Below, one piece after another: positions 25,703 to 29,464 of a DNA stretch of 64,000 nt. Positions within the stretch are counted from its first letter, which is position 1; each line of letters begins with the position of its first letter. The notes below the pieces were generated by a model that saw nothing but the letters and a program-made list of their open reading frames with translations, searched no databases and was not told the DNA's origin. The position numbers were made by a program, and so were the translations under genes. Origin of the DNA: Desulfopila aestuarii DSM 18488 (lineage in GTDB: Bacteria; Desulfobacterota; Desulfobulbia; Desulfobulbales; Desulfocapsaceae); the NCBI GenBank assembly GCA_945863875.1, contig CAMBBS010000005.1, positions 62,001 to 126,000 on the forward strand, read 5' to 3'.

Positions 25703-28213
25703 TCAACTTTCGGAAAACAGGCTCCATTTGCTCGTTTTTATGTCGTAGGCGTAAAACATGACCAAGGTCAGTGGCCGCCCCCCGCCGGTTTCCGTGCATT
25801 GCATGCGGAAAATTAATTTTGATTCGGTCTTTTTCGTATTGCTGATAACCGGGTTGCTAAGGTTTTCCGGGATAGCCGACGAATAGTTGGCAACAAAAAG
25901 TGTTTGGAAATTGTTTTTCAGGTATTCTTCCTTTTCCGTCATAAATATTTTCTCATCAAGGGCGCGTATGGCGCTGTTCATTTCCTTTTCTGTCTCGTTA
26001 AATTCTTCTTCTGCCCGCAAAGAACTCGCGATAATATTCGCTAAAATTTGCCGATACAGACCCTTGGCCTTCACTAACTCGTCCTTTTCAATGTGGGTTT
26101 GTGCGGTTTGGCGATCTCGAATGATAGACGCCTGAAGAATAATTCTCGACAGTTTCAGGATGTTGATGCCCGAGTCCGCTGTACTTGATACAGCCCCGGT
26201 TTCGCTCAGGAGGTTGCTTGCCTGGTTGTATGCGGCAATGGCATCGTCCCAGGATCCCGAGGCAAAGGCCTTGTTGCCCTTGTTGATGGTGGTGTAGAGT
26301 TCTGCCCGTTTTATATTATTTCGAATGGCGTCTATTGATTCAGGGGACAGGGCCGCTTCCTGTCCCCTGGTCAGCGCAAGATTGTAGGCAGCTATGGCGC
26401 TGAGCCAGTCTGCGCCGGTAAAAGACAGGTCGCCCTGCTCTTTAAGATTGGCAAACTGGCACTTGTGCAGCGCCTCCTGCAGTTGTGCCGAATACCGCTC
26501 ACGCTCCGTTTCCGGAAGAGACATGAGCACCTTCTGGGCCTGGAAGAGTTTTTCTATGGCGTCTTCCCATTGACGGTCGTGCATGGAAATTTGCGCCGGG
26601 TCGTAAGACATTCTAAACTCGGCTATGCGGCGTTTATGCTGCATGTCTTCGATAACCGGCCGCTCAACATCGGTGCTGTTCTCGGTTTGCCTGAGGATGG
26701 TTGTGAAAAGCTGTTCCGCCGCCGGCCATTTTTCATCGAGAAAAAGTGCATTTGCTTCCTTGAGTTGTCCTTGTATTGACAGGAGTTTTTTAGCCTCGTT
26801 TGCTGGGATGTATCTGCCGTCATATAAAATATTGCCGGCCAGGCCGTGGGTGAGTCTTGCCGATTGCAGGGTCTGTCGGAGAGACTGTTCCAGCTGTTGC
26901 GCTTCGTCCTGCTGGATAAACTTTACCTGATCAACCAGGTGTAAGGCCCGAGTGCATAAACGTTCAGCGTTCTTGAATTGATTGTCAGCAAGAGATGCGG
27001 AACATTCTGCCGAGGCCGTCTGAGCCTCCCGCAGGGTATTTTTTGCGGCCTGCCAGAAATAGCCGCTGCCTCCCATGGAGATGGCCAATACCCCAAGGAA
27101 CAGCAGAAAAAAGATCCTGTTTTTATTGTGCGCCTTGGCAGGAATGAGGTCCTGTTGATTATTTTTTGCTGATCGCGACCGCTCTGCGGTTTTTGCAGTC
27201 GCCGTTTTATGCGGAGGCGCTGCGTTGTTAGCGGAATCCGGGGCTTGAGCGGAAGCGTAAGGGTCAAAAATGTCCGTGCCCTTTTCAGGGTGGATAGCAT
27301 CGACACCCGACAGGGTCTGTTGTATGCGATGAATATCAGCGTCTATCGCCGGAAAATCGGCGACAATCAAGGTAATCTGCTGGTATTTTTCAAAAGCAAT
27401 CCGGGCCTCGCCTTTCTTCTCGAATTTTTTGGCGTCCCCGTGCAGTTTTTCGACCAGTGCTATTTTGTCCCTTGCTTTGAGACATAACTTCTGCACCGCT
27501 TCAGTGGAGTAACCGCAGTTTTCGGCGGTTTTCACCAGGGTATAATATTTTTTCTGCTTATCGTGCCGATTGAAGAGTTCAAGGTCAATGACGCTTGAGG
27601 AATCTACCTCGGGAAAAGAGGTGTTCAGGGTAATTTCTTCATCCTGTCCCTTGTTCTCCAAGGCAAGAAAATCAAATTCGCTTTTTAAATCGGCTTCATC
27701 CAGGGTGTCGATAGGGTGGAGGTGGGCGTCGTCGGCGGGTGGTAGTGAGCCCTTCGCGGTTTGCCAGCGTATCCGTGCAAGGGGGAACCTGGTCGAATGG
27801 TCCAGGTACCATGCCGCCGCCTCTTCATTGAAGGCGTTGCTCGTCGAGTAAAATTCGCCATTGATCATTTGTCCGATATGGATGATAAGATCGGAGAGAG
27901 AACGATCCTGGCGCCAGAAATCCCCGAGGCATATCGCGGCAGGATCAAAGTCAGGATGGAAAATGTCACATTTCGGCTTGCAACTCGGCGGAAAATGTGG
28001 AAAACCAAAGGGGATGGCCAGTTCAACCTGGGGATTGACCGATTCGACGATTTTTCCTTCGCCAGTTTTGCAGAGCCCATGGAGCGTGTAGACAATTTTG
28101 TATTGCTCAGGGGGATCGCCCTTCGTCGGAATAACGGAAATCACCGGATGAGAAAGGAAATGTTCCTGGAGCTGTTTGCAGATTTCGTCTAACTGGTTGG
28201 GAGAAGAAGGCAT
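25703..28213 (-). CDS. Membrane protein with N-terminal E2-ubiquitin-conjugating (UBC)-like domain and C-terminal TPR-like repeats
   Basis: In this 836-residue protein, residues about 5-150 look like a UBC/E2 fold. A beta strand (VELAIPFGFPHFPPSCKP) leads into CDIFHPDFDPAAICLGDFW, with HPD at 86-88 in the place of the E2 HPN motif and Cys95 where E2 enzymes carry the catalytic Cys (ICLD). Helix-rich sequence follows to about 300. A single membrane span lies at about 367-388, preceded by basic residues, so the N-terminus should be cytoplasmic and the C-terminal half periplasmic. That half has TPR-like repeats (WLSAIAAYNLALTRG, WDDAIAAYNQASNLL). I saw no E1, ubiquitin-like or JAB gene nearby. 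The domain call is by eye. Confidence 0.6.
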   Translation of the reverse strand: MPSSPNQLDEICKQLQEHFLSHPVISVIPTKGDPPEQYKIVYTLHGLCKTGEGKIVESVNPQVELAIPFGFPHFPPSCKPKCDIFHPDFDPAAICLGDFWRQDRSLSDLIIHIGQMINGEFYSTSNAFNEEAAAWYLDHSTRFPLARIRWQTAKGSLPPADDAHLHPIDTLDEADLKSEFDFLALENKGQDEEITLNTSFPEVDSSSVIDLELFNRHDKQKKYYTLVKTAENCGYSTEAVQKLCLKARDKIALVEKLHGDAKKFEKKGEARIAFEKYQQITLIVADFPAIDADIHRIQQTLSGVDAIHPEKGTDIFDPYASAQAPDSANNAAPPHKTATAKTAERSRSAKNNQQDLIPAKAHNKNRIFFLLFLGVLAISMGGSGYFWQAAKNTLREAQTASAECSASLADNQFKNAERLCTRALHLVDQVKFIQQDEAQQLEQSLRQTLQSARLTHGLAGNILYDGRYIPANEAKKLLSIQGQLKEANALFLDEKWPAAEQLFTTILRQTENSTDVERPVIEDMQHKRRIAEFRMSYDPAQISMHDRQWEDAIEKLFQAQKVLMSLPETERERYSAQLQEALHKCQFANLKEQGDLSFTGADWLSAIAAYNLALTRGQEAALSPESIDAIRNNIKRAELYTTINKGNKAFASGSWDDAIAAYNQASNLLSETGAVSSTADSGINILKLSRIILQASIIRDRQTAQTHIEKDELVKAKGLYRQILANIIASSLRAEEEFNETEKEMNSAIRALDEKIFMTEKEEYLKNNFQTLFVANYSSAIPENLSNPVISNTKKTESKLIFRMQCTETGGGRPLTLVMFYAYDIKTSKWSLFSES

Positions 28214-28381
28214 GTGTATTTATGGTCTGAGTTGGTAAATTGATGACTGTTTTAGTCAGTATAGCAAGGATATTTGAGCAACACCAAAAGAAAGTTCGAC
28301 AGGGGCCAGATTTGTGCTGAAAAGGGTGTGTGGTGCATACAGGACGGCAATTGACCGGCGGTTACTCTTCTCCCATTGTGT

Positions 28382-29464
28382 ATGAAAAATCTTAGCGCAT
28401 TTTTTAGGATCATAAAAGACCAGAATTGTCCGTTGTACAAGGTGGATGAGCGACTCTTTCTCTCGGAAAAGACCCTGTCCTGTCCGCCAGGAAAAGAGAT
28501 GTGTCTCATTCTGATCCGCGATCTGACCGAGTTGTTGTTCAAACTTTTACAGGAGCGGCCGCCTGACCTGGAGAGCTACTCCGACACCATCTTTAATTGC
28601 AGCGGCTGCACCGGCTTGATTAAGTTTTCCCTGGTGCGGGCCGACGCACAGGAAGATACTTTGTCAAGTGGCAAGGCGGGAACAGGCGCAGCGCCACACG
28701 TTGTTGCGACTGTCCTGCAACTATTTGAAAAATTATCTGATTGCGCCCTGCTGCAGGCTATTCCCACTGAGCAGAGAGCGCTGCTGCTCAATCATTTTCG
28801 GCAAATCACCCTCGAAGAGGGGGCAGTCCTTATCCGGCAGGGGGAAAACAATCTCAATTTGTATATTGTTGTTGATGGGGAACTCGTTATCGAGAATGGC
28901 GGCGTGCGCCTGGCAACTCTTGCACATGGACAAATATGTGGGGAAATGAGCTACCTGGGCGCCGATATTGCTGTCGCAACGGTGACGGCGACAAAGAAAA
29001 GCCAGGTATTGGCCATTGCGGGAAATATTTTTGGCAGTCTGCTCGAAAACAATCGGGCGGTGCAGTCCTACATGGCGCAGATGCTCGCCGCAATGTTGCG
29101 CAAAACAAATGAGGCCAGGGCACGTGACTTTGCCTCCTGTATGAGTGGCCGGATTGATGAGATCGTTCCCGCGGAACTCTTCCAGATTTTCCACATGCAC
29201 CAGAAGACCGGGGTACTGTCTCTGGAACTGCCCGATGGAAAAGCAAAGGTGGCCTTCCGGGAAGGGTGTATAATCAATGCCGCTTACAGCGAGCTGGCTA
29301 ATGAAGAGGCGATATTTAAAATCCTCGCGGAAAAAAAAGGTCTTTACCGCTTTACCTCAGGTCTTTCACCCCATGAAATGCGCGCCGCGGAGATCGGAGA
29401 TTTTATGATGCTGCTCATGGAAGGTGTCAAGCGGGTAGATGAGGAGCAGGAACGATCCGGATAA
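28382..29464 (+). CDS. Cyclic-nucleotide-binding domain protein with C-terminal PATAN/DUF4388 domain
   Basis: Residues about 1-80 of this 360-residue protein form a small Cys-containing module (NCPLY, FNCSGCTGLIKF). Residues about 110-225 are a cNMP-binding fold (ILIRQGENNLNLYIVVDGELVI, HGQICGEMSYLG). The C-terminal about 115 residues match DUF4388/PATAN (IFHMHQKTGVLSLELPDGKAKVAFREGCIINAAYSELANEEAI). No helix-turn-helix is evident, so it is probably not a CRP-type transcription factor but a signalling adaptor. It is divergently transcribed from the UBC-like gene, about 168 bases apart. The ATG at 28382 is preferred over a TTG two codons earlier. Confidence 0.8.
   Translation: MKNLSAFFRIIKDQNCPLYKVDERLFLSEKTLSCPPGKEMCLILIRDLTELLFKLLQERPPDLESYSDTIFNCSGCTGLIKFSLVRADAQEDTLSSGKAGTGAAPHVVATVLQLFEKLSDCALLQAIPTEQRALLLNHFRQITLEEGAVLIRQGENNLNLYIVVDGELVIENGGVRLATLAHGQICGEMSYLGADIAVATVTATKKSQVLAIAGNIFGSLLENNRAVQSYMAQMLAAMLRKTNEARARDFASCMSGRIDEIVPAELFQIFHMHQKTGVLSLELPDGKAKVAFREGCIINAAYSELANEEAIFKILAEKKGLYRFTSGLSPHEMRAAEIGDFMMLLMEGVKRVDEEQERSG

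Follow-up and report, generated by a model that had tools for sequence, protein, structure and literature searches.

A UBC/E2-fold domain in a predicted membrane protein of sulfate-reducing bacteria, with cysteine, arginine or lysine at the position of the E2 catalytic cysteine

Introduction

The UEV domains of eukaryotes have the fold of E2 enzymes and are catalytically inactive. By the account in PMC1779556, bacterial E2-like proteins are known mostly from operons that also encode an E1, a ubiquitin-like protein (Ubl) and a JAB protein, many of them mobile, and inactive E2-fold (RWD-like) domains occur beside polyUbl genes. Here we analyse a gene of Desulfopila aestuarii DSM 18488 that joins a UBC (E2-like) domain to a membrane span and tetratricopeptide-repeat (TPR)-like repeats. 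It occupies 25703..28213 on the minus strand of a 64,000-nucleotide stretch, referred to throughout as the window (contig CAMBBS010000005.1, positions 62,001 to 126,000, assembly GCA_945863875.1). An earlier note, made from the window sequence, had drawn attention to this gene. We compared it across the window's own family (f1) and other families of the same order (f12, f3 and f6), and loci, genomes and contigs are given L, G and C numbers where they must be told apart.

Like eukaryotic E2 enzymes (UQ_con), the protein has the E2 fold over residues 1-147, with an HPx motif and a cysteine at the aligned places. It differs from them in having HPD and not HPN, in the membrane span and TPR-like repeats fused to the domain, and in the replacement of the cysteine in sister families. 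Thus the fold and the cysteine after the HPx loop are present and the HPN motif is absent; the stretch from this cysteine to the following tryptophan is presumably also shorter than in UBE2D-type E2s. Descent is likely shared with the E2s of bacterial E1/Ubl/JAB operons (described in PMC1779556, with BilB as given in PMC11354881), but in contrast to the Bil type and its relatives the window gene is syntenic, chromosomal, membrane anchored and without an operon. What it has in common with inactive E2-fold domains, whether RWD-like or UEV, is an E2 fold that lacks the catalytic cysteine in sister lineages. Here, however, Cys and non-Cys forms occur within one orthologous gene, most non-Cys forms carry a conserved Arg or Lys instead, and no Ubl or E1 gene is adjacent. 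The window protein itself, with its Cys95, falls outside the Cys-less UEV/RWD-like class, to which its f12 orthologues belong.

Results

The N-terminal domain has a UBC fold

The earlier note had read an E2-like N-terminus in an 836-residue open reading frame, with HPD at residues 86-88 in the place of HPN and Cys95 within AICLGDF. Structure models and profile searches bear this reading out, and both indicate that residues 1-147 (27773..28213, minus strand, as for all parts of the gene given below) are a true UBC/E2 fold. AlphaFold2 modelled residues 1-165 with a predicted local distance difference test score (pLDDT) of 87.5 and a predicted template modelling score (pTM) of 0.83. Foldseek returned 352 matches to this model at E ≤ 0.001, and the 50 of them listed were all E2s or E2 complexes (E from 3.6e-6). 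The 50 matches listed by VIA-align were all E2s, the best being UBE2S (Z 13.7, root-mean-square deviation 2.5, 126 aligned).

A profile of 42 homologues searched against the PDB recovered E2 structures from E = 8e-5. In these alignments HPD (27950..27958) lies opposite HPN, and Cys95 (27929..27931), for which sister lineages have Arg or Lys, lies opposite the catalytic cysteine. The single query sequence gave E2 alignments from E = 0.02. Pfam UQ_con matched residues 61-143 of the query with E = 6e-4 and 19.8 bits, under its cut-off of 27, and was found at E ≤ 0.01 in 34 of the 37 members of alignment A2, which includes the query (best 1.4e-7).

The residue at position 95 differs between families

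The residue at position 95 was determined for 149 of the 170 genomes matching the UBC profile (f1 81/83, f12 51/70, f3 16/16, f6 1/1). For residue counts and substitution ratios one row was used per genome, of at least 135 residues (80 f1, 51 f12 and 16 f3 genomes). Cysteine is present in 75 of the 80 f1 genomes, the others having Ser (two), His, Arg or Tyr (one each), and also in the single f6 genome. No f12 genome has it: 49 of the 51 have Arg and two have Ala. The 16 f3 genomes divide into seven with Cys, seven with Lys and two with Arg. The f12 arginine is encoded by five codons (CGC 24, CGT 15, CGG 6, CGA 3, AGA 1), which indicates that the residue itself is held. Trp100 is present in all 147 rows of f1, f12 and f3.

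The HPD motif is less variable, being kept in 82 of 86 f1 rows, 49 of 51 f12 rows and 16 of 16 f3 rows. The four f1 rows without it are a free E2 of the same genome as the window (HPN; contig C56, described below), two HPE paralogues and one row without the HPx columns. The 86 f1 rows include this free E2, the row without the HPx columns, which is a fragment, and four Cys-less paralogues, further paralogues of some two-match genomes being excluded. A first alignment, in which the query appears twice, had shown Cys95 in 49 of 53 rows and HPD wherever it was covered (52 rows). Conservation of Cys95 and HPD in close homologues, the lack of which the earlier note had named as refuting its reading, largely holds for the cysteine within f1 and for HPD in most rows, but Cys95 itself is not kept in f12 or in much of f3.

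A UBC tree built from 62 rows requires a minimum of five changes of the Cys state, three of them forced by well supported branches; L080, L110, L111 and L119 sit on long branches. This tree omits the fragments L025 and L063, L001 (identical to the query) and L126 (the gene of L068). On a tree of 86 rows the state changes six times. A disulphide with Cys78 as the reason for keeping Cys95 is not supported, because Cys78 is kept in f1 and f3 proteins with Ser, His, Arg, Tyr or Lys at position 95.

The domain remains under purifying selection without the cysteine

The UBC domain is the best kept part of the protein in both f1 and f12. Its median identity is 52% in f1, against 31% for the periplasmic part (378 pairs), and 54% against 31% in f12 (10 pairs). 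The median ratio of nonsynonymous to synonymous substitution (dN/dS; NG86 method) over the domain was 0.092 in f12 (34 of 151 pairs usable, 31 genomes) and 0.124 among Cys-bearing f1 genes (73 of 130 pairs usable, 37 genomes). Mixed f1 pairs gave 0.152 (10/11), Cys-less f3 pairs 0.119 (5/6) and Cys-bearing f3 pairs 0.152 (10/10). By these ratios, Cys-less UBC domains remain under purifying selection. Selection continues to preserve the domain where the cysteine has been lost, which points to a binding role that all forms share. An E2-enzyme role shared by the whole family is unsupported, given the replaced Cys95 and this continued constraint.

A DUF4388 gene is paired divergently with the UBC gene

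Divergent from the UBC gene, at 28376..29464 on the plus strand, lies a gene encoding a cyclic nucleotide (cNMP)-binding domain (residues 145-226) followed by DUF4388 (residues 257-357), both assigned by Pfam, and we regard its product as a candidate partner. Of 41 f1 loci, 33 have a relative of this neighbour next to the UBC gene in divergent orientation and six have none, while the remaining two start too close to the end of a contig. Across families, an adjacent divergent DUF4388 gene was found in 69 of the 83 loci judged (f1 32/40, f3 15/16, f6 1/1, f12 21/26). This count omits L271, which is the gene of L052, and L039, L042 and L051, which lie at contig ends; f12 was judged in 26 of the 51 genomes read. 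In the f3 locus L120 the pairing is present though no secDF or SIS/CBS gene lies within 16 kb. The window's cNMP/DUF4388 protein has five matches at E ≤ 1e-20 in its own genome, itself included. At L039 the HAD gene lies directly upstream.

The DUF4388 neighbour carries a cNMP domain beside 38 of 43 Cys forms and beside 3 of 40 other forms. The latter divide into f12 (0/26), f3 with Lys (0/7), f3 with Arg (2/2) and non-Cys f1 (1/5). Pfam scans of 13 neighbours, with DUF4388 alone in ten (all of them neighbours scored as without cNMP in the survey of loci) and both domains in three, agreed with these assignments. With kinship ignored, an exact test gives 1.3e-14 over all loci, and p = 0.003 within f1 (31/35 Cys against 1/5 non-Cys) as well as within f3 (7/7 against 2/9). 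Seven independent pairs differing in cNMP could be drawn from well supported branches of the 86-row tree: the Cys state differed in the same direction in 3.5 on average, in the opposite direction in 0.4 and not at all in 3.1. With the roles swapped there were six independent pairs, 2.9 in the same direction, 0.0 opposite and 3.1 without difference. Both sign tests have a median p of 0.25, so once kinship is allowed for, the tendency of Cys95 to go with the neighbour's cNMP domain is only suggestive.

Predicted membrane topology and periplasmic repeats

The full-length AlphaFold2 model (pLDDT 82.2, pTM 0.46) places in order the UBC domain, a low-confidence and probably disordered linker, a cytoplasmic helical stretch at residues 211-307 (27293..27583), a second such linker, the membrane span, helices to residue 776 and a beta domain. 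The earlier note had proposed a single span with the E2-like part in the cytoplasm and the TPR-like half in the periplasm, and prediction agrees. One hydrophobic span is found in the query (residues 366-387, 27053..27118), as in each of the 37 A2 members, and the model shows it too. Lys and Arg are commoner before the span than after it in 35 of the 37 (means 6.3 and 2.6 per 25 residues), from which a cytoplasmic N-terminus is predicted.

The predicted periplasmic half consists of TPR-like helical repeats over residues 396-771 (25901..27028). Its description as TPR-like stands: TPR_2 is matched in 31 of the 37 A2 members, weakly and below cut-off in the query itself, and the model has helical hairpins across the region. 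In a full-length Foldseek search this part matched TPR superhelices at low TM-score, which is uninformative on a ligand. Two of its cysteines, C404 and C420, are invariant in the 37 A2 rows and missing from six f12/f3 genes checked. The protein ends in a modelled four-stranded beta domain (residues 785-832, 25718..25861), whose near-invariant C806 is kept in 35 of 37 rows.

Distribution and genomic setting

Within one order of sulfate reducers the UBC-containing membrane protein is common. The UBC profile matched 170 of 257 genomes of the order (f1 83, f12 70, f3 16 and f6 1, totals counted by hand; at least ten f1 genomes were unmatched) and 12 of 395 genomes drawn across the phylum, the window's own genome included. 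The full protein was matched in 40 of 57 searched genomes, namely 33 of 36 in f1 and 7 of 21 in other families of the order. In four of these seven (G036, G043, G049, G055) the match covers the span/TPR part with no UBC match. Span/TPR relatives lacking any UBC match include L114-L117. The named loci among the 41 compared for their setting include Desulfopila, Desulforhopalus, Desulfofustis and Desulfocapsa.

The gene is syntenic and chromosomal in most f1 genomes searched. Among the 41 f1 loci, some on contigs that end early, the neighbours, with names from Pfam, include secDF (36), a CxxCxxCC protein (35), an HAD protein (37), a SIS/CBS protein (31) that we take to be KdsD-like, S-adenosylmethionine synthetase (30) and adenosylhomocysteinase (26). 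Each of the five f12 loci fetched at sufficient length keeps a flanking gene of the window's locus: secDF and SIS/CBS in L121 and L122, secDF in L124, and SIS/CBS in L119 and L123. A role in a defence system is unsupported, the locus being syntenic and present in 33 of 36 f1 genomes. PADLOC-DB had no defence-model match for the membrane protein at E ≤ 0.01, and its Pycsar models matched the cNMP/DUF4388 neighbour over the cNMP domain only.

Some f1 genomes (L112, L113, L125, L249) have a shorter second paralogue of 540-553 residues with a Cys-less UBC domain, span and TPR part and with Arg or Pro at position 95. L111 (6257-9439, G081) encodes a 1061-residue protein in which a Cys-less HPN-type UBC domain precedes long helical repeats. 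The orthologue at L006 / L035 has one in-frame TGA, for which error, decay or recoding are possible.

Ubiquitin-type genes

As the earlier note had observed, no E1-like or JAB gene adjoins the UBC gene: searches of the window for ThiF (E ≤ 0.01) and Prok-JAB (E ≤ 0.001) both came back empty. The loci of the 41 relatives have the same other neighbours, and the membrane gene was not seen to be accompanied by any dedicated E1, Ubl or JAB gene.

A search of the rest of the genome did find such genes, in an operon on contig C56 (L080 3174-5997, G000:C56) that encodes in a row DnaJ, a ThiF-type E1, an 89-residue Ubl-like protein (a weak match, E = 0.009), an E2 with HPN and Cys, and a JAB protein. 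Neither the E1 nor the E2 of this operon was recovered from 56 relatives, among them 32 f1 genomes that have the membrane protein. The E1 had no match above 75 bits there (its own gene scores 860 bits), six of the relatives giving partial ThiF-type matches of 57-75 bits at 31-35% identity (E ≤ 1e-15). The free E2 had no match outside the membrane gene; used as query, it matched the membrane gene in 16 other genomes, with E down to 4.8e-9. A conserved tie between the membrane gene and this Ubl operon was accordingly rejected.

In another family, L110 (907-11220, G391:C35) has E1, JAB, FHA, RING, UBC, DnaJ/Zn ribbon, AAA and subtilase genes in one run. The profile of the membrane protein family matches its UBC protein (HPN, Cys) as well as the free C56 E2, and the membrane UBC domain is therefore most likely derived from such a bacterial E2. 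A dedicated E1 as a mark of the Cys lineages found no exclusive signature, since counts of ThiF-type genes (family members, not subfamilies) overlap: two to five per genome in 15 Cys-form genomes and one to four in 15 f12 genomes. Thirteen of these f12 genomes have Arg at position 95, with G506 and G511 unread. Prok-JAB matches are scattered, occurring in 21 of 31 genomes at E ≤ 0.001 and above cut-off in six.

Discussion

On balance we favour a model in which the protein is an inner-membrane scaffold or receptor whose UBC fold is kept chiefly as a docking module, the likeliest partner being the divergently encoded DUF4388 protein. The TPR-like repeats and small beta domain would sit in the periplasm, and the single span and flexible linkers would hold the UBC domain in the cytoplasm. 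This domain, of bacterial E2 descent, would be kept chiefly for protein docking in the manner of UEV and RWD domains and would dock the DUF4388 protein, which has a cNMP-binding domain in most Cys-form genomes. In this way the two proteins could couple the state of the periplasm to a second-messenger signal on the other side of the membrane. The analysis shows the fold in model and profile, the predicted topology, the synteny, the exchange of Cys for Arg or Lys among orthologues, continued purifying selection on Cys-less domains and the conserved gene pair; docking, DUF4388 as the bound partner and a signalling purpose are what we infer. The loss of the cysteine to Arg or Lys in the sister lineages, mainly at loci whose neighbour is without the cNMP sensor, makes a signalling dock seem a better description of the protein than a ubiquitin-type enzyme.

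The neighbour offers a parallel of its own. DUF4388 corresponds to the PATAN domain. For PATAN regulators of cyanobacteria, PMC7690835 describes a presumed action on type IV pili, and the divergent neighbour resembles such DUF4388/PATAN signalling proteins in having DUF4388, usually with a cNMP-binding domain; by analogy this is only a hint of signalling. No link between DUF4388/PATAN and a UBC-fold protein was found in the open-licence PMC papers searched, and a published description may exist elsewhere.

Several observations weigh against the docking model. Cys95 is retained in 75 of the 80 f1 genomes, and its link with a cNMP-bearing partner implies that the cysteine itself probably does something in f1. 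The lone Cys-less f1 pair has a higher dN/dS (0.297), the pairs behind the dN/dS medians share genomes, and the f12 residues come from the 51 of 70 matching f12 genomes with listed coordinates. The association of Cys with cNMP is not significant on independent pairs and has exceptions: L069 (Ser) and L255 and L258 (Arg) have cNMP neighbours; L052, L053, L055 and L068 are Cys forms that lack a DUF4388 gene alongside; and L259 of f6 has Cys beside a DUF4388-only neighbour. The DUF4388 protein is a candidate partner of the UBC domain, and some relatives carry the span/TPR part without a UBC match.

The strongest alternative, which we consider doubtful but deserving of serious attention, is that the f1 protein is a working membrane-tethered E2. 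Cys95 would take a ubiquitin-like protein and transfer it near the inner membrane, and the Arg and Lys lineages would be later pseudo-enzymes. One example of such a protein would be a ThiS/MoaD-like carrier that a housekeeping E1 of ThiF/MoeB type activates, and the cNMP/DUF4388 protein may control the process. The clear E2 fold, the retention of Cys95 in f1, its suggestive association with the cNMP domain, the family profile's match to the L110 UBC protein in its E1-containing gene run, and the two to five ThiF-type genes in each of the 15 Cys-form genomes all accord with such an enzyme, and thioester chemistry at Cys95 of the window protein may occur. Yet no dedicated E1, Ubl or JAB gene travels visibly with the membrane gene, ThiF-type counts overlap with those of f12 and Prok-JAB matches are scattered, HPD stands in place of HPN, and the cysteine has been lost repeatedly, with at least five or six changes of state, without loss of constraint.

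A related and somewhat more tentative idea is that of a switched E2 active site within one orthologous membrane protein, with Cys, a conserved Arg and in part Lys as its states. The Cys form would perhaps be a second-messenger-controlled, tethered E2 using a housekeeping E1 and carrier, and the Lys form could hold a modifier through a stable isopeptide, like the engineered C85K UbcH5b conjugate named in the title of PDB entry 9yea. If so, the locus would show a conjugating enzyme turning into a signalling scaffold.

That the membrane protein serves the C56 operon, as a second, membrane-bound E2 or a receptor for conjugates, is very unlikely: the operon lies in the same genome and its E2 detects the membrane gene in other genomes, but the failure to find its E1 and free E2 in the 56 relatives, including the 32 f1 genomes with the membrane protein, leaves a local link at best. 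Equally improbable is that the UBC domain is a partnerless structural relic and that the TPR membrane protein which bears it acts in the envelope, since, for all that span/TPR relatives without a UBC match exist and secDF and SIS/CBS genes flank the locus, the domain is the most conserved part of the protein, is under purifying selection with and without Cys, and keeps its DUF4388 pairing over four families.

Bacterial E2-like proteins have been described mostly from operons; at this locus the E2 fold belongs to a membrane protein that is syntenic and widely conserved. Its natural Cys, Arg and Lys alternatives in one orthologous gene offer a direct test of the E2 fold without thioester chemistry, and the pairing with a cNMP/DUF4388 gene supplies a concrete candidate partner. 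An active Cys form would amount to a membrane-tethered E2 with no operon to itself; an inactive one would make the family a bacterial parallel to UEV domains.

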